Assembly: GCA_033398695.1 (NCBI GenBank)
Contig: CM065815.1
Location: 98,670,501-98,734,500 of the forward strand
DNA from: Orobanche coerulescens
Lineage: Eukaryota; Streptophyta; Magnoliopsida; Lamiales; Orobanchaceae
Direction: 5' to 3'
Length of the DNA stretch: 64,000 nucleotides
Part shown: piece after piece, positions 1,637-57,763 of the stretch
Position numbering within the stretch: the first letter of the stretch is position 1
How the letters are laid out: each line of letters opens with the position of its first letter
Program-made: the position numbers and the translations under genes
Notes under the pieces: model-generated
The model's database searches: none
Told to the model about the DNA's origin: nothing
The model's input: only the letters and a program-made list of their open reading frames with translations

Positions 1637-2947
1637 TGTTGCGATTTTTCGTTAACGCAAGTGCACGTTATCGTTGACAAGTAACAAAGTGATGAGTGAG
1701 TATCGTTCCCACGAGGACTGAATCACTAACTACCGATTTTTATGTATTCTAGTTTTATTTGAACAATCGAACTTCGGGTTGCAATTAATTACTAAAAGAA
1801 TTAATAAAAGACTAAACAGTAAAAACAATCGATCAAATGATGAATAATTCTAGGATTATGAATCCACCTCAGTTTATCCGAATTTACTCTCGATTATCTG
1901 AAATTAATGATTTTCCCAATTTATTGAAGGCAAATATTGCTAAAATACTCTACCGCCTCTCCCGAGGTCAATAGATTTTTCTAAAGGCGAATAACGCACT
2001 CTATCCCTAGGTGAATTGATTCGTCAATAGGCAAAAAGCATAAAATGCTCAAAAGGCCACGTAGTTCCTATGAGTATATTCCTATCTCACAGAATAAAAC
2101 GGTCCTCACCAATAGTTCCTCACCAACTCTCCTCTCCCGATTCGAGTAAGGTAATTAAAACAATCCAATTATTGGCCAGACAATTGAAAGCATTAATATC
2201 AATTGGGAAAACTCAATAGAAAAGGGAATTATATAGATAATCTAAAGCAAATCCGTCAAAACTTAGGTTTCATCAAAATCCTAGAACAAGAGTTTTAGCC
2301 TGACATGCTAAATAATGAAAATATAGAAATAATAAATAAAAGCATGAAAATCAAACGCAGATGAAGAGCTCGGATTCCTCCGTTTTTCTGGCTTCCGCCC
2401 TCTGCCCTTGATGTCTTCTGCTTCTCTCTTCCGCGTTAGTCTTCCGTGATCCTAGCTTTCCCAAGCCTCCCCGATAATTAATTAGGGTCTTAAACCCTTA
2501 TTTATAGCTCCCAACAGCCTCCAAATTGCGTCCGTGTGAGTAGGTCGAGAACTGGCTTCAAAACGGCCCAAACCCGTGCGGAGCACACCAAAACCGCCCT
2601 GTGTGCCGCGGCTCACTTAATCTGTGCCGCGGCATATGGCGTCCAGATTAAAACCTGGGCGCTGTGACTTTCTTATGGGCCGCGGCTCACCTGGTCTGTG
2701 CCGCGGCACAGAGTACAGATTACTCTGATGCCCGCTGGTCCTCTTCGTGTGCCGCGGCCCACTTGCCTTGTGCCGCGGCCCACGGCCAAAATTCGCCGTT
2801 TTCGCCCGTTTTGCCTCGTTTTAGCTTCCGGACTCCAATCTCCTGTCAAACATGCGAGAATAAGACATTAAAAGCTCATTTATGCAATTTTACTCGCCAA
2901 AATAATACAAAATAATGATAAATAAGCGTATAAAAATACACCTAACA
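1637..2947 (-). repeat. A2 3' LTR
   Basis: 1311 bp, nearly identical to the right copy apart from the LINE insertion there and small changes in the palindrome array. On the minus strand it runs U3 (array 2603-2783), TATA (RC of tatttata at 2499-2506), then R/U5 to CGCAACA at 1637. The purine tract of the element abuts at 2948-2960. Confidence 0.9.
2603..2783 (-). promoter_or_regulatory. Palindrome array in A2 3' LTR (three 21-bp pairs) upstream of TATA
   Basis: Six copies of a motif centred on CCGCGG, with consensus GTGCCGCGGCACAG or half-variants ending in CTCAC/CCCAC, start at 2603, 2624, 2677, 2698, 2749 and 2770. Within each of the three pairs the start-to-start distance is exactly 21 bp (14-bp motif plus 7-bp linker). 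Pairs are separated by about 37-38 bp. In the element's orientation the array lies about 100 bp upstream of the TATA box at 2499-2506, so it occupies the U3 promoter position. A role as protein-binding or promoter sites is inferred. Confidence 0.8.
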
Positions 2948-3898
2948 AATACCCCTAAACTTGAGCCTTTGCTTGTCCTCAAGCAAAAAGAATTAATTTC
3001 AACAAAAGAATATCGTGAATAATCGTGCAACTCATAGTGCTCAACCTAATCAATATTACCCTGAAATTCTCTCTGAATAATACGAGTATCGTAATAGCGA
3101 GCTACACTCAGAACACTGATTCCGCAAAGTAACCAAGTTCAGTCCTAATCACTCGTTCATGAAGAAAATCCAGCTCAAAGATTAACAAACGTGAATCTAA
3201 TCGACCGTCAATATGAAAGGTTAAAATAAACGAGCTAATTCGCCCCGTTCCACAGTCTAATGGCAAAATTTTCAGGAGTTTCATCAAAAATAACCCTCGG
3301 ACAGTATTCCCTTATATATATTCTCAAGAAATTGATTCGAGTTGACCACTAGGTTCGGATCTCGGGATGTTTCATCGGGATAATCCTAGGGTGGAACTTC
3401 CATTCTCATGTATTGGGAAACCGTTTGACGTAAAAGACACTCATGGGGCACATGGATGCTTCTAGTTACTAAGTTCCCCTCCACAGCGGAGAAACAACTC
3501 GAATAGCTATTCCCGCATGTCCGATTCAAGGTCGCTGTTTTATGCGAGAGTAAACAACGGGTCACCTGAATACCCCCGGTTACTAGGCTTCCCGTCTTCG
3601 GTACATGTGAAATCTCTAAACCACTAGTCAAATCAGGGTCGTCGTTTTATGCGAGAGTAAACAACGGGTCACGTGAATACCCCCGGTTACTAGACTTCCC
3701 ATCATAGAACAAATATTATCTCGACTTTTGGGGAAAAACTGTCCGACTCTAAACTAAAATCAAATGCCAACACGAAAATGTAACCAAACGTATCAACGGC
3801 GATTTGAAAACACGTATGTCTCTTCTCTTATCCGCTAAGGTCTCTACAAAAAACGAAAAAAAATTCGGACCTAAATGAAGACTTAGCAGAAACAGAAA
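2948..3898 (-). other. A2 internal non-coding tail with about 110-bp direct repeats
   Basis: This is sequence between the extra ORF and the 3' LTR. A block starting with a GTTTTATGCGAGAGTAAACA-type sequence is present at about 3530-3598 and again at about 3640-3708 with only a few differences; a weaker third unit is at about 3420-3480. No convincing reading frame is present. The short ORFs here are translations of the repeat. Confidence 0.65.
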
Positions 3899-4149
3899 TC
3901 ACTGACTACAACTCGACCGTTTCTTCAGAGAGAAAAACAGTGTCGTAACATCAGTATTACACAAATAGAAGCACGAAAAATTCACAAATAAGAGTAAAAT
4001 CATGACAAGCAAGGCTATCGACAAAAAGATAACTAAAAATAACAAAAAGTGCAAACGAAATAAGTACAGCAGTAAATGTAGCAACAGAAATAGACCCCCC
4101 CCCAAACTTAGGACGTACATTGACCTCAATAGACAAAATATAATATACA

Positions 4150-5531
4150 ATAAAAGTGAAAGGTCAAGTACTCCCCTACAAACAGCCCACGAGCTGGTGC
4201 CGGCGTCATCCGGCGAGGAGGGTGGTGTGGCTGGCCGAGCAGGTGCAATAAATGGCCCGTCCGGGTGCAAAATGTGGGCTGTCCATGCGGCAAGGTGCTC
4301 CTGGTGGTAGGCGTCCCTCGCTGCCAGACGCCTCGCCTCACGCCGGTTGGCCCGGCGGGCCTGCTCTCGCATCTCATCCCTGACGGCAGCAATGATGCTC
4401 TCCCTCTCCGTCCGCCTCTCCCCTCTCATCTCAGCCAGAAGGCTCTCTCTCTCTCCTCATCTCCTCTCTCTCTCTCCTCATATCCTCTCTCTCTCTCCTC
4501 ATATCCTCCCTCAGCCCGTCGAACATCGCCTGCAATCTCTCTCTGTCGGGCGGTGGGCCGGCATCTGCCTGCCCCTGTGTCAGCAGAAGAGGCTCGGGGG
4601 ACCCCTCGTGGGCCTCATCCAGTAGAAATCCTCTCCCCCGAGCGTGCGCCAGCGCTCCTCCCCATTGGTCAAAATGTGAGATGATGTGGTGGTCGATCGG
4701 GGCCTGGGGAGCTAGCATCGGCTCGTCGTCCGACCACGTCATCCCCGACTGCCGACACAGAGCGCAGATAAGAGAGGGGTGCTTCAACCCCGTCTTGGCC
4801 CCTCCCTGAATACACTGGAAGATAGATCGGACCAGGAGAGGAGCCACATCGAATCGCAGCCCGGAGGTGATAGCATATAATGTCCGGGCTCGGGAGAGAA
4901 AAACAGTGCGGATCTGAGAAGTAGGGTCTACACGGGCGCAGATAAAGTATAACCATGCTCGCCCGAGCCAGCTGAGTCGCGAGCGCTTGAAGTAGAAAGT
5001 GGAAGAAGCCGGTGCGCGCCGCTCCCAGTCCGAGTCGGGCTGTGTAAGAGTCTCGAGCAGAGCCTCCTTCGTGAGGCTATCCATGACTCGCGCATAAGCC
5101 GTCTCATCAACCACCGGAAGCTCAAACAACCTCCGAATAGCAGCCACAGAAAAATCCACCGTAATGCCTCGGACTACGACCTGAGTCCGAGTGTCCAGCT
5201 GCTGTAACGTCTGCCCCGCCCTAATGTGCTTCAACAACACGCTGGCATAGAACTCCTGCACTATCGATATCACCGCTGGCTCGGGGGGTGCAGCGAATCG
5301 GGCCCACCCCATCTCGTCTATCATGGTCAGCAGTTCCCCGTCCTGGAGGGCTGGAGTGAATCCCCTCTCCGGGATCAGAGGTCGCAGGCGAATCTTCTCG
5401 TTAAAGATTTTGTGGATCTCCGGGTCAGAGAACTGGTGCGCCTCTGAATCGGCTCGACTGTGAGAAGTTTCCTCTCGAGTGGGGGATGACTGAGTCCTGG
5501 CCCTCTTGCTCAGCTTTTTAGTCCTAGCCAT
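4150..5531 (-). CDS. Athila/Tat extra ORF, 'putative plant transposon protein' domain, frameshifted near its C-terminus
   Basis: The intact part is 366 residues (5531-4431) and starts MARTKKLSKRARTQS, a basic N-terminus that could be a nuclear-localisation signal. Residues about 40-260 resemble the domain annotated in many plant genomes as 'putative plant transposon protein', including GITVDFSVAAIRRLFELP and the later FLSRARTLYAITSGLRFD and SLICALCRQSGM segments. It is carried by Athila/Tat elements; its molecular role is unknown to me, although the position after pol resembles the env-like ORF. The C-terminus is a charged heptad-like REREDMRRERE repeat encoded by a CT-rich microsatellite (4438-4520). 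A frameshift there ends the frame at 4431, and the natural continuation (MRGERRTERESIIAAVRDEM) runs on from 4429 to about 4150. A TATA-like box and palindrome array lie upstream. Confidence 0.7.
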
Positions 5532-5554
5532 AGCAAGTCCTTGGGTGTCGGCCG

Positions 5555-5820
5555 AGTGCGCGTTATAAACTACTTGGGCTGTTCAAATTCCGCATGGTGT
5601 GCCGCGGCACAGCTCAAGTGAGCCGCGGCACAGAGTACAGCGTGCCTGGTTGTGGATTTTATGTCGACATGTGCCGCGGCTCAGAATGCAGGTGCCGCGG
5701 CTCAGCCATCAAGTGTTCCGCGGCTCAGTAAGGTTGTGCCGCGGCACATAGTACAGAAAGTTAAGCTCTCTCCTTCGATTTGTGTGTGCCGCGGCTCACA
5801 ATACTTATGCCGCGGCTCAG
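5555..5820 (-). promoter_or_regulatory. Second, internal palindrome array of A2 followed by a TATA-like box
   Basis: Eight CCGCGG-centred motifs start at 5599, 5620, 5671, 5692, 5715, 5736, 5786 and 5807, forming four pairs, each with exactly 21 bp start-to-start. These are the same motifs as in the A2 LTR U3. In the element's orientation the array ends about 70 bp before the ATG of the extra ORF (5531), with TTTATAAC at about 5560-5570 between them. This repeats the array-then-TATA order of the LTR promoter. An internal promoter for the extra ORF is inferred, not shown. Confidence 0.65.
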
Positions 5821-6033
5821 GCATAAATTTCTCCCCTGGGACTTTTCCTGCACAGAATTTTAACAGGAACACGTCAAGAACGAGAGGTAAAAGCAAATCA
5901 AAGCACAAAATGATGAAAAATAAAAATTCAAGAATGCAAGAAAAATACAGAAATGCAAAAATCTACAACTAAGAACTCGGGTTGCCTCCCGAGAAGCGCT
6001 AAGTTTATAGTCTTCAGCCGGACCTATTTAAAA

Positions 6034-7467
6034 TCAGTTCGCTTTTCGCAAACTCCATTTGATCTCCGCCCTGTTCATCGAACCGTCAATATGCTTTTTG
6101 AAATTTTGACCATTGGTCATTAACGATTCGATTTTTGGTTCGGACACCCAATGTTGTTTGCGGAAAGGTTTTGACGAGAATAACTTTCCGAAACACCCAT
6201 TTTCCACATGACTGGGCGTCGGTTTGACTTCCGGCTTATTTTCCTTTTTTACGGACGAACTTATGAAAGCAGCAAACTTTTCCGATTGTGGCTGAATGGT
6301 TAATGATGATGGCATGTCTACATGCTTGAGTTGTGCGACTCGTTCTACATCTTTCTTAGAAGTCTGACCATCTGAAATGGATTCGGATTTTTTCAACCGA
6401 CGATTTTTCTGGTGTCTGTCTTTCACAACGGCATCCACACTTTCAATTTGCGAGTCATTCTCGACACCACCTGGACACGGAAAGGATTTAAATACTTGGA
6501 ACGTGACATGCTCGTCTTGAATCCTTAGAGTTAATTCACCTTTTTCCACATCTATGAGGGTTCGGCCGGTCGCTAAGAATGGTCTTCCCAAAATGATTGG
6601 GATGTCTTGATCTTCCTCCATGTCGAGCACAATGAAGTCGGCCGGAAATATGAACTTATCAACTTTTACTAACACGTCCTCGACTATTCCCCTCGGATAT
6701 TTAATCGATCGATCCGCTAATTGCAAGGAGATTGTCATCGGCTTCGCTTCTCCAATTCCCAGCTTTTTGAAAATAGACAGAGGCATGAGGTTAATACTAG
6801 CACCGAGATCGCACAACGCCTTATTAAAGGAGAGATTCCCCATAGTGCACGGTATGTTGAAACTTCCCGGATCCTTGAATTTTGGCGGAAGCTTTTTCTG
6901 AAGAATTGCGCTGCACTCCTCCGTCAAGGCGACTGTCTCAAACTCCTCGAGTTTTCTTTTCTTTGACAAGATCTCCTTCATGAATTTAACGTAGCTCGGC
7001 ATTTGCTCCAATGCGGCGGCAAATGGAATGTTAATATGAAGCTTCTTGAACACGTCGAGGAACTTAGAGAATTGCTTGTCCGCCTTTTTCTGTTGTAATC
7101 TCTGCGGAAACGGGATGGGTGGCACATATGCCTTCGGATTATCCAGAAACGTTATCGAGGGTCTCCAACCTTGTGATTCCTCCGTCGCTGAATTTTTCTT
7201 CTCCTCAATTTCACTTCTATTTTCACTCCTCTCGGGCTGGTCACATACCTCCTTCCCGCTTCTCAAACTGATCGCATTTAGACTTTCTCTAGGATTTGTC
7301 TCGGTCGTACTTGGCAATGCTCCCTCCGGGCGGGCTGTCAACACATTAGCAATCTGGCCCAGTTGGACTTCCAAGTTGCGAATGGAAACGGAATGATTTT
7401 GTAATGTTGCTTCTGTACGGGTCATGAATTGACTCGTATTCACTGCCAATTTCGCAATTGCTTCCTC
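6034..7467 (-). CDS. A2 gag C-terminus and aspartic protease (3' exon-like half split by B)
   Basis: The open frame continues from the B boundary (EEAIAKL then AVNTSQFMTRTEATLQNHSV) to a stop at 6034. It contains the Gag spacer region (IRNLEVQLGQIANVL, ISLRSGKEV) and then a retroviral-type aspartic protease. The latter has the Athila/Tat signature CDLGASINLMPLSIFKKLGI (catalytic D in DLGAS), the SLQLADRSIKYPRG flap region and IILGRPFLATGRTLID. The protease would cut the Gag polyprotein. The reading frame is open for about 475 codons with no stop, unusually clean for an element that lacks pol. The N-terminal half of the same protein is at 25898-27079; both halves are in matching phase across the B insertion. 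Confidence 0.85.
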   Translation of the reverse strand, partial: EEAIAKLAVNTSQFMTRTEATLQNHSVSIRNLEVQLGQIANVLTARPEGALPSTTETNPRESLNAISLRSGKEVCDQPERSENRSEIEEKKNSATEESQGWRPSITFLDNPKAYVPPIPFPQRLQQKKADKQFSKFLDVFKKLHINIPFAAALEQMPSYVKFMKEILSKKRKLEEFETVALTEECSAILQKKLPPKFKDPGSFNIPCTMGNLSFNKALCDLGASINLMPLSIFKKLGIGEAKPMTISLQLADRSIKYPRGIVEDVLVKVDKFIFPADFIVLDMEEDQDIPIILGRPFLATGRTLIDVEKGELTLRIQDEHVTFQVFKSFPCPGGVENDSQIESVDAVVKDRHQKNRRLKKSESISDGQTSKKDVERVAQLKHVDMPSSLTIQPQSEKFAAFISSSVKKENKPEVKPTPSHVENGCFGKLFSSKPFRKQHWVSEPKIESLMTNGQNFKKHIDGSMNRAEIKWSLRKAN

Positions 7468-7622
7468 TGTAATATCCGGATTTATTACTGTGTATTTTAC
7501 CTGTATTCGAACCCTGTATTATTCGGAATTGTGATCTTGATGATTGGAGTATGATATTTCTTACATTGATATCTTTGTACATAAGTATAGCATCATGCAA
7601 AATTTCTCATGCAAACTCGTGA

Positions 7623-7875
7623 TAGCGCACGCTAAGAATGTAGCTTAACGCGCGCTATCGAGCTACTACTAGCGCACGCTATGTATGTAGGAGTTGCGTG
7701 CGCTAAGCACTCAATTATTGAACTGGACGGCTAGCACATGCGCCAGCCGGGACATGGGTCCGGATAAGATTCCCGCGGACGAACCTGGACAGTTTTGAAT
7801 TCAATCTTATTAGCGCGCGCTAAGGAATGCTTAGTAGCGTGCGCTAATTAGCTAAAGTGCAGAATATTATAAATG
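7623..7875 (+). promoter_or_regulatory. B 5' LTR palindrome array 1 and TATA-like box
   Basis: One quartet of TAGCGCACGCTA-type motifs (variants TAACGCGCGCTA, TTGCGTGCGCTA) from 7623 is followed by a spacer with two CTGGAC sequences. A pair (7811 TAGCGCGCGCTA, 7835 TAGCGTGCGCTA) then precedes ATTATAAATG at 7866. The quartet, spacer, pair, TATA order matches elements C, D and E. Confidence 0.75.
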
Positions 7876-8688
7876 AGACAACAACCCGTTTTGGCTTACA
7901 CTTCATTCGTCCATTCTTCATTCTTGAGAGGCCAGAGAGCTATAATAATCCTTCTATACACTTAGAACACATCTTATTGATCCTTGTATATTGGTGAGTG
8001 ATCATTGAAGTGGAGTAGCACCTTGGAGTGGCATACAACCAACCGGAGTCGGATTCTACCTTACGGTTCAGTGATTTTTGTCATATTAAGGTATGTTCAA
8101 CCTATCTCCAGACTTAGAGTTGGATTCTAAAGAATTGGATGATCATGTTAACGAGATATTGATTTTCATTAGTGAATTATCCAAAGTACATCATGTTTGG
8201 AATATTGAGATGAATAAGCCTTAAGTACCTTGATTATGAACATCATGATTCGAATCTTATTACATTGAACAAGTAGAGGAAGCTTCTATCATTGGTAATC
8301 CGAATCTAGTAGATGACTTCATAACAATCATGGACTTGACTTTAACATCATTATTGTTAGATGAATCTAAGGGATTGATCATGGAAGGATTTATCTAGTA
8401 TAGATGGAATCTTAAACAACTACAGAGTGATAGTTTTCATTGATATAAAGGTGTTGATATCAACCGTTAAGCCTTCCGAATTATCGCATGAAGAATGGTA
8501 TTTGCAATGGAATATGGTTTTATAATAGTATACATATTCTTGAATCCGAAGTTGTTGTTATCCGTAAGATCATTCATAATCGTATGAACATGATATTCAT
8601 GGAGGTAACATGAATTATCACGGAAGATTTCATTGTTTTGATCATGATGAGAATAGTCTTCTGCCGGTAGTGAACTGCCATGCACAGT

Positions 8689-8904
8689 TAGCGCACGCTA
8701 AGTTATGTAAATTAAAGTGCGCTATCGAGCATCGGTTAACGTGCGCTACGTTTGGTACGTAACGTACGCTAGGACATCAGACGAGTCAGTCAGCTGATCA
8801 GTGAAGTACTGACCATGCATAGTTAGCGTACGCTATGCTTTGTTGTTTGCGTGCGCTATCGAGCAGACTTAACGCACGCTACACAGAGTACTTAGCGTGC
8901 GCTA
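8689..8904 (+). promoter_or_regulatory. B 5' LTR palindrome array 2 (two quartets)
   Basis: Eight motifs of the TAGCGYRCGCTA type, several starting AACG or TTGCG, form two groups of four with a spacer of about 50 bp containing GTACTGACC. A weak TATA-like CATATTATG lies about 20 bp downstream. This second array is not seen in the C, D or E LTRs. It may be a duplicated promoter module or part of a composite LTR. Confidence 0.6.
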
Positions 8905-10037
8905 AGAAGTTCAGGCAGATTACATATTATGAGGTTTTGGCCGTAAATCGAATTGTTAGACATTCGTACGACGTGAGATAAATCCTATATTATTTCTTTT
9001 GTTAAGGTTTGAGCTTGTTACGTGATTGATTGAGGGGGGGACGACCTTCAAGTGTTCGTTTTCGTGGAAGTATTGTTCTTGTCTTCATCGAGGCAAGTAC
9101 CTTATTTGTTTTACGTATTGATATTATACATATTGTCATGCATGTATGTCGTTGTTGTATGTCCACCTCGTGTTGGTCCGACGGGATCATCGGGGGATCT
9201 ATGCTAGCGTGCGCTGGATCATCGGACGGGTTTTTCCACCACGGGTTGGTCTGACGGGATCATCGTGGGTTCTAGGCAGTGAACGCTGGATCGTCGGAAT
9301 TACTATGTGTATGTTGAGATTATCAGTTGTGTATATTATGTATGAGTTTCTCGCAGGAGAAGACTTGTTTGACATTTTATCATTTACGTTATTATTATTC
9401 TGCGTGTGACGTTGAATAATATGTTGTGGTACTTGTACTAGCATCGTTGTGCTAACCCCTTCGGGGGTGAACATTTTATTTATGTTCAAGATCCAGGAGA
9501 GCGGGAAAACAACCACTGGAGCTGCATGACGACGAGGGTGCAGAGTGATGTTCCGGCCGGGTTTAATTGTCTGTTGTTTATTGGTTATTTCAATAAGTAC
9601 TCGAGTACGAAGTCATTTATGAGGAATTTGAATTTGGTGATGTATTATTAAGTTTCTGTTGAACAATTGTATTTTCAGTACTTGGTCAGAACTGTTGTAT
9701 CTTAATTCCGTTATTTCCATTCGTTAGTACCTTTTAATGTCTGTTCAATTCTTCAGCCTTGTAAATCCTTATGTAAAGGATTTACGGCGCTGTAATATTC
9801 CTGAATATATCGGGGGTGTTACAGAATATGGTATCGGAGCTAAGATTATGGATATCTTGGCCGTTGGGTTAAAATAAGGGTCATTTACGTCTTTTGAGGT
9901 AACTGGCCGTGAATGACATCACTGCACTGCCTACGTCTTCATGCGAACGGTGGTTGTAAGTTCCTAAAGTCTATCTCGTCCTTTGCAAGTTATATTTCCT
10001 TGTACTTGAGCATTCGAACGATATTGATTCTTGTATA

Positions 10038-11258: not shown

Positions 11259-13485
11259 TGTAATATCCGCATTTTTTCTTTCCCTTGTATCTTCATTTTT
11301 CGGTGTATTTCTCGGTTTTAGTGACCCTTGTGTATCTTTCAGTGTATCTTTCCCATCATCTATTGATCTGATTCTCGTTATTGTTGTACGAAACCGCTAT
11401 TCGGGGTTGCCGTGGATCCATTCTATGTTTTGATGCGTCTTGAGATGTTCCGTTCAACGTTTCGTTCATATTCCGGTGTTTTGGACCGTTTATATTTCGT
11501 ACCTAGCGCACGCTATATTTTCTGCATAGCGCACGCTAGGGGTCACTTAGTAGCACACGCTACGACTGTTTCATAGCGCGCGCTAGAGGGCAAGCCCTGG
11601 GAGTGGCAGTGCTGATTCCAGTCCTCTGGACTGGTGGATTAGCATACGCTACGTAGCCTAGCGCACGCTAATGTTGGGAGTTAGCGCACGCTGAGACGCC
11701 CGGTAGCGTGCGCTAGTGTGGATGCCCAGTACTGGATAGTTTGCCACTGGACTCTACTGATGCCCAGGTAGCGCACGCTATTGGTCGATAGCGCGCGCTA
11801 CCAATACACTTTAGCGCACGCTATGTTTGGTCGATAGCGCGCGCTAACCGGATCAGGTGTGTACTGACAGTTCCTTCTGGACTTGGCTGATGTCCAGGTA
11901 GCGCACGCTATTGGTCGATAGCGCGCGCTACCGAGAGGTTATTAGCGCACGCTACGTTTGGAGTAGGCGCACGCTAATGGCCAGAAGTCTGGCTACTGGA
12001 CTGTAGTCTGTTTCGTTAGCGCACGCTAACCTGTAGGATTAGCGCGCGCTAACACTCCCTGGCTATATAAACTAGGGAGTTGACCCAGATGAACATATTA
12101 CGTTCATTTCTTATCCTCCCCCCGCGGCTTAGAGCTCCTTTGGCGATTTTGGGCGATTCTTGGTGATTTCTTCTTCCAATCATCTCATCCAACATCTTCC
12201 TCGAATTCTTGGTGTATTATATCAACATCAACACGAAACTTTCATCCTAATCCAAGGTAAAATCTCTTAGAACCCTACTTTTCGATAAATTGGGGGTTTT
12301 GGGATTTTCGTCCGATTCGTTCCGTTTTGTTGATGGATTCATGATGAATATGATTAATCTTGTTAGTATCATTAGTTTTCCTACGGATTCATGGTATATT
12401 TCATAGTTTTTGCAGAATCGAGAGGGTTTGGTTGTGGTCCACCCTCGTTGTTGTTTATATACGGATATACATGAATCGTAGGCGGGTTTTCGGGTGTATT
12501 CCATTTCTGTATTCGTCTAGAGTTGGTTGTAATTATGTTCTTAGAATCGTTAGGTTCGGTTTCGTTGATTCCTAGCATTCGTCGGTGATTATCCTTTCCA
12601 TTCGTTGCGTCATCAATTATTCAAGGCAAGTATTTTTGGAAACCTTTATGCTTAACGTGGAATGGTAGTGTATTTTGTGTGTGATTTGCTCACCTCGTGT
12701 TGGTCCGACGGGATCAAGGAGGGAATCCAAAGGGTTGAGTCCTGGATTCATGAGTTTGTTTAGCTAGCCAGCGCGGGAGGGTCCTTAGAGGCCTCGGGCG
12801 GGAATCTATGATATTACTCTGTTCCCAAGGCGATGCATGTGCGTGTTTTGTTTTATAATATAACCAGCGCGGGAGGGTCCTTAGAGGCCTCGGGCGGGAA
12901 TCTATGATATTACTCTGTTCCCAAGGCGAATTGTTTGACTGTTTGTTTTCGGAAAAGACATGTCTGGTTTTGGTTTTCGAAATGATATTGGTGCATGTAC
13001 TATGAAATGTGTAAGCGATTGGTTTGCCTTGATTACTTGTACTAGCGTAATTGCTAACCCCTTTGGGGACCCGTTGTGGGGAAATTCTTGTTATGGATTT
13101 CAGTTTATGATCATCCGGACGAGCGAGCGCTGGGACAGTACGAGGATGTTGGCCAGGGTCGTTGACATGCGCATTTGGGTCTACTTATTTCTTTTGTCCA
13201 TTTCGATATGGTTGTTTCCACATTTATAAACTGATAGATTGTACACGCGAGTACTTAGGCTTTTCATTTCAAACTCCGTATTGTATCACTTTAAATTGTT
13301 ACATTGTCAGTTGATGCTTATTTCGCCAGTTGCTCCGGGCGTATCTTTATATGTAATATTATTTAAATGTGTGACCTCGCTAACCGAGATGGTTAGTCGA
13401 GTGGTGTCTTCTAGTTGTAGCATGTTGGGTCCCATGTAGGGGTCCACGGCGCTGTAATATACTCCGAATATCTCGGGGTGTTACA
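11259..13485 (+). repeat. C 5' LTR
   Basis: 2227 bp, TGTAATATCC...GGGGTGTTACA. Order: short U3, palindrome array 11504-12051, TATA 12064-12071, leader, a direct duplication of about 68 bp with 96-bp period (12768-12835 and 12864-12930, CCAGCGCGGGAGGGTCCTTA), ACTAGC/GCTAACCCC block at about 13034-13070, and a terminal TGTAATAT repeat. Confidence 0.92.
11504..12071 (+). promoter_or_regulatory. C 5' LTR palindrome array: four quartets plus a pair, then TATA
   Basis: Eighteen TAGCGCRCGCTA-type motifs, about 23-24 bp apart within groups. Quartets begin at about 11504, 11640, 11769 and 11899 (steps of 136, 129 and 130 bp), and a final pair begins at 12017 and ends at 12051. Each spacer between groups contains CTGGACT. 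TATATAAA follows at 12064. Orientation variants TAGCGCACGCTA and TAGCGTGCGCTA and the perfect palindrome TAGCGCGCGCTA all occur. Confidence 0.8.
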
Positions 13486-13725
13486 GAAAATGATAGCAGA
13501 GCTCTTGGTTTATGGATACCTAGGCTTGTCGGTTATTTGGGTCTAGTCGTGTTTTGTTTCGCACATTGTCACACCGCTGCCGGCATCTCAGTACTTCCAG
13601 TGTTCGTAAGTTTCCTTACTCAATTCTTTACTTTCTAGTACTGTATTCCATTTCTTGGACTGTGATTATTCTCCCTCTTTTACTTATCATCGAGTTGCTT
13701 TTGCCACCTCTTATCACCAGCATGG

Positions 13726-25897: not shown

Positions 25898-27079
25898 GAG
25901 CGAAACCTTTGGAGCGGGAGGAGGTTGCTGTTGGTTTTGAGCGAACGGAGGCTGGTTCGAGTTCTGTCCATTTCTCCATGAGAAGTTGGGATGATTACGC
26001 CATCCCGGATTATACGTGTTGGAGTATGGATTATTTTGCCGGTTCCCATTTCCTACGAACTGAGCTTGTTCAATTGGGGGCTGCTCGAACGGGTTTCCGA
26101 CTTGGCATTCTATGCTAGGATGAGATCCATTACACCAATTGCACGATTCAATGGCAACGGGGGGAGGAGCATGCGAAAAGGCTTGAAGTTGTTGCCTCAA
26201 AGCGGCGACTTGGGCTGACAATGTAGAGATTGGATCATTATTTGAGATCTCCATAACTCGCTTCGGATTTACTCTTTCGGATGGCCATTGATATGCATTT
26301 GCGGCCATAGCTTCCAACAAAGAATGTGCTTCAGCCATCGTTTTTCCCATTAAAGCTCCTCCAGCGGCTGCATCCACGAGAGTGCGTGTAGAGGCACTCA
26401 AACCATTGTAGAACGTCTGAATTTGGAGCCAGTCCGGAAGGCCGTGATGTGGGCATCTCCTTAGCAAATCTTTGTATCGCTCCCACGCCTCGTGAAGCGA
26501 CTCCATATCATATTGACAAAAGGTGGTAATTTCGTTCCGTAACCCCGCCGTCTTTGAAGGTGGGAAGAATCTAGCAAGGAAGGCTTGCGCTAATTCTGCC
26601 CATGTCGTGATCGAGCCCGGCGGTAAAGAATTCAACCAAAATTTCGCTTTGTCCCTCAAAGAGAAAGGGAAAAGCCGTAATCGGATAGCATCATCGGTGA
26701 CACCATTGTTCTTGAACGTGTCACAAATCTCGAGAAACGACGCAATGTGTGCGTTGGGGTCATCATTCGGCAATTCACAGAACTGGCTCGCTTGTACCAT
26801 CTGAATAATAGCAGGCTTGATTTCGAAGTTGTTTGCCTGGATGGTGGGACGCCGAATCCCCGAAAAGTTTGGGTTAATTTGCGGCATAGCGTAATCTCGA
26901 AGTGCCAGTGCCGGTTGAACTTGCTGCACATGGTTATCTCCTCCGTGAATTTCGATATTTTCGGCCATGGTCACTGTCGTCTGTAAATCTCGTTTCTCCT
27001 TCTTCTTCTTACTTCTCCGAAGAGTGCGCTCGAGTTCGGTATTCAAAGGTAGTAGTCCTTTGTTACCGAACTTTCTCAT
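25898..27079 (-). CDS. A2 gag N-terminal half, interrupted by B
   Basis: Athila-type Gag starting MRKFGNKGLLPLNTELERTL at 27079. The capsid domain lies at about residues 100-240 (MVQASQFCELPNDDPNAHI, FLEICDTFKNNGVTDDAIRL, FPFSLRDKAKFWLNSLPPGS). It is followed by SLLEAMAANAYQWPSER and one zinc-knuckle-like CNWCNGSHPSIEC. A Gln/Pro/Asn-rich linker reaches PKVSL at the B boundary. The protein would package element RNA. The frame is open throughout and continues in phase at 7467 (EEAIAKL). Gag and protease are thus intact apart from the B insertion. Confidence 0.88.
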
Positions 27080-27202
27080 GCACTACCCGAAAGATCCTGA
27101 AAGGACAAACAAATAAAATAAAATAAAATACAAGAAAATAAGTAAATAAAAAAATGTCCAAACTAAGACTAGAAATACTGAAATCGATATTAGTAAAAAT
27201 TC

Positions 27203-27222
27203 AATCCCCGGCAACGGCGCCA
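27203..27222 (-). other. A2 primer-binding site, tRNA-Asp type
   Basis: On the minus strand TGGCGCCGTTGCCGGGGATT begins six bases after the 5' LTR end. This is the primer site typical of Athila/Tat elements. Confidence 0.85.
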
Positions 27223-45034: not shown

Positions 45035-47481
45035 TGTAATACCCAGTTGTAATTCAGTAATTATCATTCAGTATTTATCATTCAGTAATTGATACTCAGT
45101 AATTTCATTCATCATTGATCATTTGTCACTCATATTCAGTCATGGTATTCATCATTCAGAGTAATTGTACCGTGTATCAATCGTCATTCATCACTAATCT
45201 GATTGGAGTTTCGTGCCGTGTTTATCATCATTGTCATTTTCGTTGTGAGCTGTGCGTGAGGAGTAGCGCACGCTACATACTCCTTTTAGCGTACGCTAAT
45301 TGGGTATAGGTAGCGCACGCTACCACTCAGCTTTAGCGCACGCTAAGGTTACCCTGGCTGCAGTCCAGAAGGTACTGGACTGCAGGTGAGTTATAAGTAG
45401 CGCACGCTACGATTGGTAAGTAGCGCGCGCTAGTGGGTTGAAGTAGCGCACGCTAATATGAGGTGTAGCGCGCGCTAAGGACGGATCAGGTTGAGTCCAG
45501 TGGCTACTGGACTGCACTGGATTAATTCATAGCGCACGCTATGTGTTGTTGTTAGCGTACGCAACCGATATATTAGCGCACGCTAAACAATTGTTGTAGC
45601 GCACGCTATCGGGGTCAGATCAGAGGTCAGACAGTTTTCTGGACTCCAGTGCTGGGCATCAATATTTCGTTAGCGCACGCTAATAATGGGTCTTAGCGCA
45701 CGCTAGTAATATGGCCGTAGCGCACGCTACAAGAAGGTACGTAGCGCGCGCTACCGTGTTCGGACAGTGGGTACTGGACTACCCAAATTACCCGTTAGCG
45801 CACGCTACGCTCAAGGGCTAGCGTACGCTAACCTGGACTGACTATAAATTGGACAGTTTAGTCACAGTTCGTCATTTATTCATCTCATTTCATTCCTTCG
45901 GTAATTTTGGGCGATTTCGAGCGATTCGGAGAGGATTCTTCGAGGTGTAATCATCAATCATCATCTTCAAGATCATCTTTCGGATTAATCATCATTTCAT
46001 CATCTTCATCGTATCGAATCAAAGGTATTAATCTCTTGGATCTAGAATTTGATTTTGGGTTTTTCCTCCCGATTTCTTCGTAAGCTTGGATTATCATTGG
46101 AATATGTTGGATAAGGATTATCTACCTTGGATAAGTATATTCTTACGGATTTAATGGTTATTTTGAATTATTTCAAGAACCCTTGGGGTTGACTTGGTTA
46201 TTTTGGGGATTTGATTGTCGTTTCTATAAACTTGAATTGTGGATTTCTATGAGATTATTGATGTCATTGATAATGTTTCTTGGTTTGAATCAATCATTTT
46301 GGAGTTGGTTCGATAATTCGGGTTTGGTTTTAACCAACGGGTATCTCAATGTTTTCGTTAGAGTTCATCTACGAGTTCGGATATTGTTGTATCGACGTTT
46401 GGGTCGGTTATGATCGTATTTGATTCGTGTATTGATCGGTTGTTGGTAACTATTGTTGTTCAAGGTTGTTCGAGCGACCGACATTTCATTTAGGACGTTG
46501 TTCGTGGAAGGACATTCTTCATCGGTATTGAGTAAGTTAATTCTTACTCGGTTAAAAGGATATTCATTCCTTTTGTCGTTGTTCATTCATAATCGTAACT
46601 CATTCATCATTGTATTAACCGTATCAAAACTTGTCATTGTCAATTAATCACCTCAGTCATAAGGAACGACGGTTCCGATCATTTCATTGAGATATCATTC
46701 ATTTCACCATCATTTAATCTTGGTGAGTCATTATTCATCTTCGTTGTCACTTTTGTCATATTGTGGCATTCCGGGTCATACTGGCGTGCCGGTTGGTATG
46801 TGTAGGATTTTCATGTCGGGCACATTATAGTCGTGTGTTGGTTGGTGGCCTCACATTGGACTGTGCACACGAGTTGATGGCTTCGTGAGACTGATTAGGT
46901 ACAAGACCACACGTGTATTCGATCAATACTCGTTGGTGGCTTGTGCACGGACACATTTCCATCCCAGACGTAGTGTGGCGCCATTCCTTTGAGCCGTACT
47001 GATAGTCGATTCATATAGCATGTTTGATTGCGTATGTTTCGACAGGATAATTCATAATTTCAGATATTTCATGATTGTGTATTTTCAACCCTTGAGGATT
47101 GTTGTTATGTATGGCGGCCGTTGGGGATCGCTTTTCGAGTCATGGCAAGGCTAAGGCACGGGAGAGCACGGTGACGCGAGGAGTCAGTGATACTAGTAGG
47201 GGCCAGTCTATTGATCACTTATATTTTCTTCATTTATTCCTTGCAGACATTCCGTTTGAATATTCATTTCACTCGGTGTTGTATATTTTATCTCCATATA
47301 AAATATACTTGTATTGATATCATCACAGGTATGTTGTATGAAACTCCTCATCGGAGTAATTAATTGTGTAATGTGGTTCGGTACTACATTTACCTGTGTA
47401 ATTCATTCATTTTCATTCGCCTGGTGGGTCCCAGTCGGGGGTCCACGGCACTGTAATATCCGCCTAGTTTGGGGTGTTACA
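45035..47481 (+). repeat. E 3' LTR
   Basis: 2447 bp with the complete array (45264-45830) and TATAAATT (45843-45850). In 46040-46280 it lacks CG/CCG/CGG dinucleotides or triplets that the 5' LTR has, so both copies carry small deletions in different places. Confidence 0.92.
45264..45850 (+). promoter_or_regulatory. E 3' LTR palindrome array: four quartets plus a pair, then TATA
   Basis: Eighteen motifs. Quartets begin at 45264, 45398, 45530 and 45671 (steps of 134, 132 and 141 bp), the pair at 45796 and 45819. Spacers contain ACTGGACTGC, ACTGGACTGC, CTGGACTCC and ACTGGACTAC. TATAAATT follows at 45843. This is the cleanest example of the architecture in the window. Confidence 0.82.
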
Positions 47482-48708: not shown

Positions 48709-50844
48709 TGTAATACCCGTACTTTTGTTGACCGTTTGACCTTTCCGTTCTCCTTATTTTGTCGCTCTGTAAACGCATAGAGATGTTGTGGATATTGTTA
48801 TTAAGTCTCGTGCCTTGTTTAGGCCACGATCATATTGTTTAGACTTTTCGGAAGTGTTCTGGGCCAGAGGAATAGCGCACGCTAGGTCTAGGCTAACGCA
48901 CGCTAATTCAGCTTGATTAGCGCACGCTAGCTTTGAACCGTAGCGCACGCTAAGGGACCAGTCAGGTCAGAACCAGTAACTCAGACTGCTCTCTGGACTG
49001 GCGGATTAACGCATGCTAGGAGTTCGTTAGCACGCGCTATTCGTGGTTAGTAGTGCACGCTAACATCCGTCCGTAGCGCACGCTAATGGCCGGGTCGGCA
49101 GAGGCAGTGACGTTGTCAGGTTTCTGGACTATCAAGTAGCGCACGCTATGCTTCGGCTAGCGCACGCTGAAACTGTTACGTAGCGCACGCTAAGGCATAA
49201 TGGTAGCGCACGCTAATGTTTTGGTCAGTAGAAGCAGTGGAGTTTCAGACTTTCTGGACTAGCAGGTAGCGCACGCTAGGCAGCGGCTAGCGTACGCTAT
49301 ATGTGTTGCGTAACGCACGCTAGTGCTCAGTATTAACGCACGCTAGCGGACCCAGGCAGTAAGCTGAGATTTTGGCAGGGCAGCAGTTAGCGCACGCAAA
49401 GGATGTTTCGTAGCGCGCGCTAACATCTTATGGTAACCACTGGACTACCCGGTAACTTCGCTAGCGCACGCTAATGAAGGAGGCGTAGCATGCGCTAGAC
49501 TGGGCAGATATAAATATGACAGTTGACTTCCATTTCGTCATTTCTCACCTACTTCACTCCTTTTCGACGGAAATCGCTCGGGAGAGACGATCTTGGGCGA
49601 TTGGAAGCAATCTTCCTTCCAACAACAACATATTTGGTTGGAGAACAAGGATTTCTCAACATCTAATTCCTCCTAGCGTCCGAATCAAGGTAAAAATCCT
49701 TAGAACCCTACTTTTTGGAAATTTTGGGGTTTTTCGTAGATTCGTCCGATTTATCCGTTTGGAAGCTTGAGAACCTTGAGATTATGATGTATCTATACCG
49801 TATGCATGCTTTTCCTACGATTTTATGGTTTGGATTGTGCCGTTTTCGGACTTGTGAGATTTTGGACGACTTTCCAACCTCTAGTTGATTATCCGTATAT
49901 CTTTATGAATCGTAGACGGGTTTCGGGGGTTTCTTCGTGTAATTTGAATATGGATAATTGATTATCATATTCCTTGCGAATCGTTTAGGTGCCGGAAGCG
50001 CGTTCTTGGACCTACCGATCTCATACCCCTTTTTCCGTTCGTTTTCTCGATGTCTCAAAGGCAAGTATACATTTATGATTGTGCGTTCTCGACTTTGAAA
50101 GTAAGAAATATTGATGGTATGATATGAACGAACCGTTTCTACGGCATTCATAGATATATTGATGGCATGATATGAACGAACCGTTTCTACGGCATTCATA
50201 TATGAATTGATGGCATGATATGAACGAACTGTTTCTACGGCATTCATACATGTATTGACGGATGATATGAACGAACCGTTTCTACGGTATTCATATACGT
50301 CTTGATGTGGCACTATGAGATTTTAGTTATTCCGGAATACTAGTCTTGAATTGACGAATTGACGGTTACATTTACCTTATTGTCGAGAAGTATTGTGTTT
50401 CATACTTGATATCCTTGCACTAGCTATTCGACGGCTAACCCCTTTATGGGGGAAATACGTTTTATGTATTTCAGGTTCCAAGAGAGCGGACAGGCAGGTA
50501 TCGGGTCGGCATGAAGATGGTGGGCAAGTGTGATACTGTGTTTTTCTTCCAGTTATGTTTGGAGTTTCCCATTCAGTGTTGTTGTACTGGATTGGCTATT
50601 GAATACTCGAGTATTATTTTCCATTTTCCTTGATGTTCCGGCCTGTGTTTGCCGAAGTATTGATTCGAGTTGTGTTGTTTGTGAATACATTGGTTATGTT
50701 TTGAATACCTTTGTATTGTTTTTCATCCCTTTGTGTGTAGACCTTATCGGTCAAAATTTATGGTTCCGCGTATGTTTAGCCTTGTGGGTCCCACGGCGGG
50801 ACTTACGGCGCTGTAATATCCCTGAATAACTCGGGGGTGTTACA
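48709..50844 (+). repeat. D 3' LTR
   Basis: 2136 bp, array 48873-49497, ATATAAATAT at about 49508-49517, and 48-bp tandem units at about 50112-50304. It ends GGGGGTGTTACA before AAAGT. Confidence 0.93.
48873..49517 (+). promoter_or_regulatory. D 3' LTR palindrome array and TATA
   Basis: Same group structure as in the 5' LTR. Individual motifs have decayed independently (TAACGCATGCTA, TAGCACGCGCTA, TAGTGCACGCTA). These are mostly C-to-T or G-to-A changes at CpG, as expected for methylated DNA. Confidence 0.75.
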
Positions 50845-50857: not shown

Positions 50858-52306
50858 GGGCTTGTTTACTTTTTATTTAATCAGCTTAATGCTTAATCAG
50901 CTTCATCAATCAGCTATATTTTGCTGTTTACTTTCAACTTAATGATCTTAATAATGTCTTTTTCATTAAGCAACTTTTGGGGTGTCCTTACTATTAAGCC
51001 AGAAATACTTCTCCAATATACCAAAATTACCCTCTCTAATAATAAAAGAATTGAGTATATATAGTATAAATTATCATATAATCTTAATTATAATTGAGTG
51101 TATATAGTATAAATTAAAAATATATATTAATATTATATATTTAAAAGTCATAAAATAAACTATTTATTGATAGAAAAATTAATATAACTATATATATTAA
51201 AATATAACTTAATATATTTATAAAAATATTATCTGATTATTTAAATATACCTGAAAATTATAATATGATTTATGAATATATATATATTATAATATAAATT
51301 AAAATATATATTATGTTATATTATATAAATTGATTTTTTTATATTGACTGTATAGTATAAATTTAAAATATATATTAATATTATATATTTAAAAGTCATA
51401 AAATAAACTATTTATTGATAAAAAATAATATAACTATATATATTAAAAAATAACTTAATATATTTATAAAAATATTGTCTGATTATTTAAATATACCTGA
51501 AAATTATAATATGATTTATGAAAATATATTATAATATAAATTAAAATATATATTATGTTATATTATATAAATTGATTTTTTTATATTGACTATTAAAAAA
51601 ATTAATATAACTATATATATTAAAATATAACTTAATATATTTATAAAAATATTGTCTAATTATTTAAATATACCTGAAATTATAATAAGATTTATGAATA
51701 TATATTATAATATAAATTAAAATATATATTATGTTATATTATATAAATTGAATTTTTTTATATTGACTATTAAAAAAATTAATATAACTATATATATTAA
51801 AATATAACTTAATATATTTATAAAAATATTGTCTAATTATTTAAATATATCTGAAAATTATAATATGATTTGTGAATATATATTATAATATAAATTAAAA
51901 TATATATTATGTTATATTATTTAAATTGATTTTTTTATATTGACTATTAAAATAATTAATATAATTATATATATTAAAATGTGACTTAATGTATTTATAA
52001 AAATATTGTCTGATTATTTAAATATAACTGAAAATTATAATATGATTTATGAAAATATATTATAATATAAATTAAAATATATATTATGTCATATTATTTA
52101 AATTGATTATATAAACTAAAATGCTCAATCTGTCCTTTATAAAAAAGGACTTAATTCATATTGAGGGGTAAAATGGTCATTTCTGTCATTCAGATAGTTC
52201 ATTCAGAAAAGAAAGAAACAACAAGATATTTTTTCAAATCAGACAGATTAATCCACTCAGACAGCTTAATCTATTCAGAGATTAATGCAAAAAAGTAAAG
52301 AGTCCC
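50858..52306. mobile_element. Tourist-like (PIF/Harbinger-type) element with internal tandem repeats
   Basis: Left end GGGCTTGTTTACTTTTT, right end (reverse complement) GGGACTCTTTACTTTTTT, flanked by TTA on both sides (50855-50857 and 52307-52309). This is the TTA duplication and GGG...GTTTA terminus type of Tourist/PIF-Harbinger elements. At 1449 bp it is long for a MITE because the interior (51105-52110) is a tandem array. There is no transposase frame. Confidence 0.65.
51105..52110. repeat. AT-rich tandem array, about 177-bp and 247-bp units
   Basis: The TAATATAACTATATATATTA segment starts near 51179, 51426, 51602, 51779 and 51957, giving steps of about 247, 176, 177 and 178 bp. The longer first unit carries an extra stretch (AAAAGTCATAAAATAAAC) of about 70 bp that later units lack. 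Confidence 0.75.
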
Positions 52307-53712: not shown

Positions 53713-53714
53713 TA

Positions 53715-54007: not shown

Positions 54008-54052
54008 TAAATAATACCTCGTATATAATCAAGTTAGTAATAGTGCATGAAA

Positions 54053-55381: not shown

Positions 55382-57763
55382 TGTAACACCCCAAACTAGG
55401 CGGATATTACAGTGCCGTGGACCCCCGACTGGGACTCACCAGGCGAATGAAAAATAATGAATTACACAGGGTAAATGTAGTACCGAACCACATTACAACA
55501 TCAATTACTCCGATTAGGAGTTTCATACAACACACCCACGATAATATAGAATACATGTGTATCTTAAGTGACGATAAAATACACAACACTGAATGAAATG
55601 AGTATTCAAACGGAATGTCTGCAGCGGAATAAATAAAGGAAACATAAATGACTGAATAACTGACTAAAAAGACTGGGGGCCCTTCTAGTATCATTGGGAC
55701 TCCTCGCCGTCAACGTGCTCTCCCTGTGCCTTTGCCTTGCCATGACCTGAGAAACAAATATCCCCAAACGGGGTCAGTTAAACAGAACAACAATCCTCCA
55801 GAGTTGAATAAACACAATCATATAATATGTAGGATAAACCACAAGTTCGATCAAAATGAAACGGTTAGATTATAACCCAATCTTGTTGAAAACATACGCA
55901 ATCAAACATGCTGTATGAATCAACTAACAGTACGGCTCAAAGGGTGGCGCCAAACTACGCCCGGGATGGAAATGTGTCCGTGCACAAGCCACCAACGAGT
56001 ATCAATCGAATACATGCGTGGTCTTGTGCCTAATCAGTCTCACGGAGCAATCGACTCGTGTGCACAGTCCAATGTGAGGCCAACAACCAACACACGACAT
56101 AAATGTGCCCGACATGAAAATCCTACACATACCAACCGGCACGCCAGTATGACCCGGAATGCCACGATATAACAAAAGTGACATCGAAAATGAATAATGA
56201 CTCACCGAGATGGAATGATAGTAATGTAAATGACAGCTCAATGAAATGATTGGAACCGTCGTTCCTTATGACTGAAGTGATTAATTGACAATAACAAGTT
56301 TTGATATGGTTAATACAATGATGAATGAGTTATGATTATGAATGAACAACAACAAAAGGGATGAATATCTTTTTAACCGAGTAAGAATTAACTTACACAA
56401 TACCGGTGACAATTATCCTTCCACGAACAACGTCCTAATTGAGATATCGGTCGCTCGAACAACCTTGAATTATACAATATCCAACAACCCGTTCAATATA
56501 TGAATCAAACACGAATATAACGAACTCAAAACGTCGGTACGATTAAACTAAGTTCATTGGGGCATTATATCGAATACGTTGTGGCCAAACTCCGATTGTT
56601 TACAATCAAATCTAAATGAGCCACTATCAAATCCCCCAAGAAGTGTTTCAAACCAACAAACATCTTCCAAATGATCAATAATCCAAAATGAATATCCGAA
56701 AACGTGATTATAACGACAATTAATCGAAAACCCCCAATTTCAACCCGATATTCAAGGTGTTCTTGAATAATCCCTCAATAATCCAATGAATCCTTATACA
56801 AACTCATAATCATATACATATCCCTTCATATAACATGATTATAACGTCCAAAACATCATATCTCAACACAAAATCGAAGTCCAAGGTGTTGAAGAAATTA
56901 CCTCTAGAAGATCCAACCACTTCGATCCGAAGAACACGAGTTTAATCGAGTATCCAAGCTTCACAACCGAATGAAAATGATTAAAAACCACACTCAAGTG
57001 ATAGGTGAAGAGAATTCTCTCCCTCAAGCCTCTCTCTCTCGTATGAAGGTGGAAGAAATGGAAGCAATGGTGAAATGCTCAAAAACGAAATTATAGGGGT
57101 TGGCGCCTGTCGGACACGGCCGTGCCCGATCGGCACGGCCGCGGCCCCGGCAGCGAGGGACTCGACCGTGTCTGCCCGGCTGACACGGCGGCGCGAAGGC
57201 CTTAGATAGTGACTGTCAAGCGGCGGACTTCGGCATGACTCGGCCGTGTCTGGAACACGGTCGGGCGTCTGGCGATCGGTTACAGCTTATCCGGAAGAGT
57301 TTGACTCGGCCGTGCCGACGACGGTCGAGTCCTGTGGCGAGACTTCAGCATTTCCGGATGAGTACAACGAGCCGTGTCGGACGACACGGCCGAGTTGATC
57401 GGCGATGATCGCCAATAACTAAAAATGAGCGGGTGAGCTAAAGCGACCATAACTCTCTCGTCGGACTTCGATTGACTCACCGTTTGAACCATTGGAAAGC
57501 TAACTCGATGCTCTATAATATTGCAAAGATTCAGAATTTTTGGAGTTACCAAAAATTAATGGTGATCTAACAAAGTCGAACTCATATGCGGAAAGTTGAA
57601 ACAATGGACAATAACGATACACAACTCGAAGTTTTTCCGAACGGTGAACACGGGTGAATGAACATGATTGATGAATGATTATAAATGAGTGAAAATCCAC
57701 TGAGTGACAATCACCGAATGAAATTACTGAATGATAATGACTGAATTACAACCGGGTATTACA
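55382..57763 (-). repeat. G 3' LTR
   Basis: 2382 bp. Homologous to the E LTR at both ends and through much of the leader. The promoter-proximal block is different: instead of TAGCGCACGCTA motifs it has CGGCCGTGTC inverted pairs (57111-57395). Confidence 0.9.
57089..57395 (-). promoter_or_regulatory. G 3' LTR array of CGGCCGTG inverted pairs next to a TATA-like box
   Basis: Five GC-rich inverted pairs at about 57111-57143, 57160-57192, 57237-57267, 57303-57330 and 57370-57394. Examples are GCCGTGTCGGACGACACGGC and CGGCCGTGCCGACGACGG. Each can fold into a hairpin with a 4-8 base loop. Steps are about 50, 77, 66 and 67 bp, and spacers share TCCGGA and TCGCCA words. In the element's orientation the array ends just before CCTATAATTTCG (57089-57100, minus). 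Confidence 0.75.

Follow-up and report, generated by a model that had tools for sequence, protein, structure and literature searches.

The closest described counterpart of the organization reported here comes from Sireviruses, which are Ty1/copia long terminal repeat (LTR) retrotransposons. According to the available text of Bousios et al. (2010; PMC2829016), the LTRs of 13 Sireviruses contain repeated palindromic motifs in their upper half, where these motifs lie upstream of the TATA box and define a CpG island. The TATA box is located on average 37 bp past the island, and each Sirevirus contains 8–32 motif copies. The motif differs among elements, 12 of the 13 published motifs share a CGG-CCG core, and the nine Sireviruses that have an ENV gene contain extra motif copies upstream of it. 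Cruz et al. (2014, PMC4029996) found a variable, 'plastic' CpG island in Del LTRs, within their 5' half, and in the available text of that study eudicot Del elements are reported to lack it. Here we describe arrays of short guanine–cytosine (GC)-rich palindromes in six LTR retrotransposons from a 64,000-nucleotide stretch of the Orobanche coerulescens genome (contig CM065815.1, positions 98,670,501 to 98,734,500 of the forward strand), which we call the window and number from its first letter. Element A2 is Athila-like, whereas elements B, C, D, E and G belong to one Ty3/gypsy lineage, which we take, following the original prediction for this stretch, to be putatively Tekay/Del.

A palindrome array is present in all 11 LTR copies that contain U3 sequence in the window, and the excess of the motifs is far above chance, being weakest in G. 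Exact matches to TAGCGCRCGCTA on both strands number 106, compared to 0.00 expected from shuffles. The pattern TAGCGCACGCTA with at most two mismatches occurs 249 times (2.64 expected), and TGTGCCGCGGC with at most one mismatch 34 times (0.44 expected). The G motif, CACGGCCGTG, with at most two mismatches has 28 matches, eight of which are inside the G array, against 13.3 expected and a shuffle maximum of 20. A motif-blind scan, in which 300-bp scanning windows were screened for GC-rich palindromic words that recur, returned 14 clusters. Twelve of these are arrays, and the other two come from the D LTR, where a 48-bp sequence is tandemly repeated. None of 1275 base-shuffled control windows had more than two copies. 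The scan picked up neither the G array nor the 3' copy of the second B array. The arrays are of three motif types in two lineages: TAGCGYRCGCTA (TAGCG-YR-CGCTA) in B–E, GCCGCGGC in A2, and CGGCCG in G alone. Excluding stray units outside the arrays (one each in B, C and A2, and three in G), there are 14 palindrome copies per LTR in B, 18 in C, 20 in D and 18 in E. A2 contains six in one LTR and eight in its internal region, and G has ten half-units.

The original prediction had placed clusters of palindromes directly upstream of the TATA boxes of six LTRs, and the arrays are confirmed at these places. The last unit is followed by a TATA-like word (TATAWA or TATAAT) after 21 bp in B, 12 bp in C, 11 bp in D, 12 bp in E and 18 bp in G, which amounts to 11–21 bp in five of the six elements, and after 96 bp in A2. 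The arrays of A2 and G had to be reassigned to the minus strand, and the predicted inventory lacked the other LTR copies, the second array of B and the internal array of A2.

The first B array (7623–7846, plus strand) contains six units and precedes a TATA box at 7868, and the second (8689–8904, plus strand; 3' copy at 24763–24978) consists of eight units in two quads. The C array (11504–12051, plus strand) has 18 units grouped as 4+4+4+4+2, with TATATAAA at 12064, and the array of the C 3' LTR is at 18075–18620 (plus strand). In D, 20 units arranged as 4+4+4+4+2+2 (31793–32420, plus strand; 3' LTR array at 48873–49497, plus strand) precede a TATAWA at 32432, which is the only one in the D LTR. 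The array of the E 3' LTR (45264–45830, plus strand) is composed of 18 units as 4+4+4+4+2, with TATAAA at 45843. Within the four-unit groups of C, D and the E 3' LTR the units are 19–24 bp apart, or about 23 bp. The last unit of one group is separated from the first of the next by 63–74 bp, and the pairs follow after 52–54 bp. The E 5' LTR array (37688–38197, plus strand) has 17 units, having lost array material, with a 39-bp step in place of a longer spacing. Therefore, the length of an array is not fixed and alters either during copying or once the element has inserted. The A2 LTR array (2603–2781, minus strand) contains six GCCGCGGC palindromes in three pairs, in which the units are 21 bp apart and the pairs, measured start to start, 51 and 53 bp apart; its TATAAA is at 2501–2506 (minus strand). 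The array of the A2 5' LTR (28195–28346, minus strand) contains five palindromes.

The sites within the arrays are constrained, whereas the short spacers between them are random. Three of the four D quads were compared, with the first quad, which is 1 bp out of register, omitted. Identical positions amount to 37/40, 37/40 and 36/40 in the cores (92%) and to 5/31, 9/31 and 11/31 in the short spacers (27%). The long gaps agree at 35/51, 14/51 and 12/51 positions, but the third quad has a shorter gap, which puts its long-gap figures out of register. Between families, short spacers of equal length are 28% identical, compared to 27% after shuffling (327 pairs). Differences between the two LTRs of an element, summed over five pairs, affect 34 of 472 CpG positions in arrays and 45 of 713 in the other LTR sequence; the corresponding non-CpG counts are 39/1848 and 88/7046. 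No protection of array CpGs after insertion was seen in these five LTR pairs. The arrays are thus unprotected in dead copies, yet they are intact across families that, apart from the E/G pair, are 70–74% identical in the integrase region, which suggests selection on active copies.

A second motif recurs between the groups of palindromes. The word is CTGGACT, which was defined on B–E. Of the 15 long gaps in these elements, 11 contain an exact copy, while in 500 rounds of shuffling the gaps no 7-mer was common to more than three. In the C array it is found at 11626, 11747, 11877 and 11996, and in the E 3' array at 45375, 45507, 45639 and 45774, with a further copy at 45833, between the array and the TATA box. 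CTGGACT-like words, with at least six of the seven positions matching, are present in 12 of the 13 long gaps of C, D and E. They also occur in all four A2 gaps tested, two in one LTR and two internal (null mean 0.14; none of 5000 shuffles reached four), with 0/4 in the minus-strand control. Both CTGGACT-like matches of the A2 LTR used fall in its two gaps, and the internal stretch of A2 contains seven matches overall compared to about six expected, so that the word is special in A2 by position, not by number. It is located 9–11 bp before the next palindrome in A2 and 13–14, 21–23 or 32 bp in C–E. The predicted 'shared position without shared sequence' holds only in part, as four of the six elements share a palindrome and A2 shares the CTGGACT-like word with C, D and E. 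Similarly, the motif differs between B–E, A2 and G, as had been claimed for each family, but B–E have one motif and represent one lineage.

A complete change of the array is found between E and G, which, judged from their integrase regions (92.8% identical over 902 bp, with full support for the split), are sister elements. The G array (57114–57395, minus strand; TATAAT at 57095) is formed by five inverted pairs of CGGCCGTG-type half-palindromes with arms of 9–12 bp, and not by the single palindromes reported before. The starts of the E and G LTRs are 82% identical and their later part 87%, and the 400 bp past the TATA box retain weak similarity (score 151, null maximum 96). The arrays themselves are unrelated, with an alignment score of −28 compared to a shuffled null mean of −27. 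Replacement of the array in the G line appears to be the simplest reading, and it is favoured because B, C and D share the motif of E; a gain in E is possible. E and G thus offer a natural module-swap experiment.

Conserved sites among random spacers, their regular spacing, the proximity of the TATA box, a second motif and the complete divergence of the E and G arrays are what the sequences contain. We consider it probable that the arrays are upstream cis-regulatory modules, combining enhancer and proximal promoter, that are built from many dyad-symmetric predicted protein-binding sites. In C, D and E the module would comprise four TAGCG-YR-CGCTA sites about 23 bp apart and one CTGGACT box, and in A2 two GCCGCGGC sites spaced by 21 bp with a CTGTACT/CTGGACG box before them. 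A protein that acts as a dimer, probably a transcription factor of the host, may bind the palindromes cooperatively with a factor that recognizes CTGGACT; in A2 the binder could possibly be the element's own extra protein. Binding would drive transcription from the nearby TATA box and keep the promoter open, and the protein may activate or may prevent silencing. The arrays would grow by tandem duplication, and occasional array replacement would change the factor used. The regular spacing, the D cores that stand between chance-level short spacers, and CTGGACT between the groups uphold a module that is under constraint near the promoter in both lineages, which agrees with the cooperative binding sites of the original prediction.

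Several results weigh against these modules. The second B array lies downstream of the B TATA box, about 820 bp further down. CTGGACT-like boxes are found in none of the three gaps of G, in one of two in B, and in one of two in the second A2 LTR, and the minus-strand control gives 5/13 in C, D and E. The one-mismatch rule was fixed after the A2 gaps had been seen, which makes the A2 p-value optimistic. Array units were picked with up to two mismatches, which inflates their apparent conservation. The arrays of C, D and E are of common ancestry and their copies are not independent; because the B–E arrays share descent, the independent cases number two or three. Helical phasing of the long gaps up to 80 bp gave p=0.014 when all of them were used and p=0.11 once repeated values within arrays were removed, and phasing is not claimed. 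Finally, the arrays of E, G and A2 fold strongly as RNA (z of −8.9, −3.4 and −6.5, respectively), although palindrome arrays must give such scores.

The reader of the arrays could be encoded by the element itself. By analogy with VANC proteins, which recognize tandem VANDAL motifs and relieve silencing, the extra protein of A2 would bind the GCCGCGGC arrays in its own LTR and internal promoter. A2 contains an internal array (5599–5818, minus strand) of eight palindromes, seven exact GCCGCGGC and one with a mismatch. They are spaced by 21/50/21/23/21/51/21 bp, i.e. as 2+4+2 units, with a stray match at 7022 excluded, and the array is akin to that of the A2 LTR (about 70% over 116 bp). It is located 31 bp before TATAAC (5562–5567, minus strand), the sole TATA word in 5301–5640, which has an imperfect consensus and is a possible candidate for an internal promoter. 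The array is also 67 bp ahead of the ATG (5531) of an extra open reading frame (ORF; 4431–5531, minus strand) of 366 residues, in which PF20167 (Transposase_32, E=1.1e-27) is the only Pfam family above the cut-off. The protein has a basic start and a long C-terminal helix. According to the available text of a sunflower study (PMC11728184), PF20167 is linked to Athila, and an Athila extra ORF similar to it is predicted to be nuclear, as is the 5' extra ORF of one Tekay group. The targets of VANC are tandem motifs that differ between related VANDAL elements, as the accessible part of PMC5735166 reports.

No DNA-binding fold is demonstrable for PF20167, however. The single-sequence model of the A2 protein is poor (predicted local distance difference test score, pLDDT, 42.4), with confidence confined to the C-terminal helix; the protein search found no homologue, and among solved structures there was no significant relative, only one chance-level match (E=0.89). 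No extra ORF with a recognised domain was found in the Tekay-type elements of the window, which have one unscanned sense frame of 124 residues in the D LTR (33362–33736) and several antisense frames, five of which were scanned and lack a Pfam family above the cut-off. Therefore, a self-encoded reader cannot be taken as a general feature of the arrays, and we regard it as doubtful. The start of the PF20167 protein (5490–5531, minus strand), MARTKKLSKRARTQ, is strongly basic and resembles the start of the histone H3 tail (ARTKQTARKS). Coincidence, a nuclear signal or mimicry could account for the resemblance. The PF20167 ORF is overlapped at its end by a second frame (3902–4456), also charged and helix-like, which is read in a different phase.

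It is unlikely that the arrays were selected as structures, either DNA hairpins and cruciforms or hairpins in the 3' end of the genomic RNA, which includes U3, feeding or evading small-RNA silencing. The arrays of E, G and A2 fold better than all their shuffles, and palindrome-rich regions of Sirevirus LTRs are small-RNA hotspots in maize, according to the accessible parts of PMC10760457 and PMC5311732. We analysed the symmetry of the 70 units in the arrays of B–E, taking one LTR of each element. Dyad symmetry does not reach beyond 12 bp, where it breaks off sharply: the bases next to the 12-mer are complementary in 20 of the 70 units, which corresponds to the expected 29% (p=0.56). In E alone the value is borderline (10/18, p=0.056), and there is no flanking symmetry in B, C, D or overall. 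Changes within the arms are one-sided and uncompensated, with pair 3/10 being A.C in 9 of the 70 units and A.T in none, and mismatches are unevenly distributed, with 17 in the left half and four in the right. Moreover, 5-bp arms around a 2-nucleotide centre make poor hairpins. Given this 12-bp limit of the symmetry and the lack of compensation, the B–E units appear to behave as sequence-specific protein-binding sites rather than as selected hairpins, and the structure resisting silencing that had been suggested earlier is disfavoured in these elements. In G, a structural role of the array is possible, since its units are true inverted pairs.

A CpG-island or nucleosome-excluding function, in which composition matters and not the motif, is quite improbable. 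The GC content of the arrays is 0.51–0.66, compared to 0.38–0.42 in the remainder of the same LTRs, and a CpG island is known from Del LTRs, as mentioned above. Nevertheless, a compositional function does not need near-identical 12-mers kept in register between random spacers. The CpG observed/expected ratio is not consistently raised either, being 0.94–1.49 in the arrays and 1.08–1.28 in the LTR remainder, with lower values inside the array in A2 and D. The sequence around the motifs qualifies as a CpG island, but this is mainly an effect of GC content, since the ratio of the whole window is 1.10. Neutral minisatellite expansion in a hypervariable stretch, to which the approximately 130-bp tandem units of C and D and the different array lengths of the two E LTRs would correspond, is highly improbable. 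It is largely contradicted by cores that are kept while short spacers are random, and the array preceding the TATA box in six of six elements and the retention of CTGGACT in most gaps also speak against it.

Provided that the arrays are binding modules, they would locate the transcription control of very abundant elements within LTRs that are often treated as unalignable sequence in large plant retrotransposons, and provide a sequence handle for the controlling proteins. They could also account for the 'plastic CpG island' seen in Del/Tekay LTRs. The layout is common to copia Sireviruses and to gypsy Athila-like and Tekay-type elements, and a CTGGACT-like box occurs in both gypsy lineages, which points to a common rule of promoter building. 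We speculate, while considering it improbable as a whole, that plant Ty3/gypsy elements and Sireviruses converged independently on one promoter architecture, in which groups of palindromes, joined in the gypsy elements by a shared accessory box, end at the TATA box, that array replacement, as between E and G, switches the reader, and that the reader of Athila-like elements is their own PF20167 protein, expressed from an internal promoter with an array of the same kind. With such a protein, an LTR retrotransposon would encode its own loop of anti-silencing or transactivation, and the internal array of A2 makes its role directly testable.

LTR retrotransposons are abundant in the window, and several are nested: B is inserted in A2, C in B, and E in D. 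Element limits were derived from self-comparison and from reading of the LTR ends. The A2 3' LTR (1637–2899, minus strand) has its ends read and is 94.9% identical to the A2 5' LTR (27229–28464, minus strand). The LTRs of B (7468–9823, plus strand, and 23541–25897; 98.8% identical) and D (31629–33764, plus strand, and 48709–50844; 97.2% identical) also have their ends read. The C 5' LTR (11259–13485, plus strand) begins with TGTAATATCC at 11259, which corrects its previous start, and the C 3' LTR (18066–20053, plus strand) lacks its first part and the polypurine tract. The E LTRs (37459–39854 and 45035–47481) were defined by self-comparison and their ends. The G 3' LTR (55382–57763, minus strand) has its ends read, and the 5' LTR of G is cut off by the end of the window. 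An AT-rich tandem array is situated between D and G (51039–52108), with a 177-bp period at 51420–52108.

C encodes, together with Retrotrans_gag, protease and reverse transcriptase (13666–16251) followed by RNase H and integrase (16252–18147). This is the Ty3/gypsy order and not the Ty1/copia order of the Sirevirus lineage, in which integrase precedes reverse transcriptase. The chromodomain PF00385, which Tekay/Del chromoviruses carry at the integrase C-terminus, is matched in B, D and E with E-values of 0.0005–0.002, all under the curated Pfam cut-off, and the scanned pieces of C and G contain no match to it. A2 (2900–7468 and 25856–28465, minus strand) has a Ty3-type gag (25856–27082, minus strand; PF03732, E=6e-23) and a protease-bearing ORF (6034–7518, minus strand; PF13650). 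No reverse transcriptase or integrase domain was found in the scanned A2 ORFs, with shorter frames left unscanned; the element either suffered a deletion or represents a pol-less non-autonomous Athila-like family. Its description as Athila-like is based on the combination of gag and PF20167 extra ORF that characterizes Athila, and on a primer-binding site that was read in the sequence and is presumably of the Athila type, and not on a pol of the Athila clade.

Two further features are located downstream of the TATA boxes. In the D LTR a 48-bp sequence that includes an AACGnnnCGTT palindrome is repeated four times in tandem (33027–33218 and 50104–50295). A splice-donor-like AAGGTA/GAGGTAA follows the TATA box after 189 bp in C, 179 bp in D, 180 bp in E and 191 bp in G, and D and E each have one additional AGGT match. 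The near-constant distance suggests a putative intron in the 5' leader.

Searches of viral_contigs and genome_contigs returned no relatives. The paired TAGCGC pattern has no locus in viral_contigs and one in genome_contigs, on a contig of the bacterium Aurantiacibacter xanthus (positions 396–429), which we take as unrelated. It contains one exact pair, two TAGCGCACGCTA sites 22 bp apart, near the array spacing, probably by coincidence. Protein-based scans of viral_contigs gave no pattern match with the E integrase piece, and eight stretches that matched a pattern with the A2 gag, none of which was confirmed. A literature search by motif strings found nothing related, and the titles and opening abstracts of the papers listed yielded no account of such arrays in Athila, Tekay or gypsy elements, most subscription papers being outside the coverage. 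Palindromes described as insertion targets (PMC6911290, in the part available) concern target sites and not LTR promoters.

The original prediction knew of no element class defined by palindrome arrays, but the Sirevirus arrays (PMC2829016) and the Del CpG island (PMC4029996) had already been described, as far as the accessible texts go. As in the published Sireviruses, each element here has at least eight copies in total, with those of G counted as half-units, and the LTR copies cluster upstream of the TATA box within a CpG island, with the exception of the second B array; the internal array of A2 before the PF20167 ORF corresponds to the copies upstream of the ENV-like gene. In contrast to the Ty1/copia Sireviruses, the arrays here belong to Ty3/gypsy Tekay-type and Athila-like elements. 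The motifs are TAGCGYRCGCTA and GCCGCGGC and not of the published CGG-CCG core type, with CGGCCG in G only, and the organization into quads or pairs with a CTGGACT-like box includes a box that is unmentioned in the available Sirevirus account. The CpG island of Del/Tekay concerns, by our own lineage assignment, the same lineage as B–E and G. The available text of PMC4029996 does not use the terms 'palindrom', 'tandem' or 'inverted repeat', whereas the arrays here are ordered and binding-site-like. Members of the Tnt1 superfamily differ mainly in the U3 regulatory region by modular evolution, as E and G do, according to the part of PMC1838419 available; however, Tnt1 is Ty1/copia, and 'palindrom' and 'tandem' are absent from the main text of that paper. 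VANDAL elements resemble the elements here in having short-motif arrays in non-coding parts, with a motif that differs between relatives, and in the case of A2 also through the extra ORF beside an array (available texts of PMC5735166 and PMC10398659). Unlike the elements here, they are DNA transposons, VANC binding was shown experimentally, and the VANDAL21 motif YAGTATTAY is unlike the motifs found here. The architecture is thus already known from Sireviruses, and what these elements add is its occurrence in two other lineages, the recurring second motif, and the complete change of motif between sister elements.

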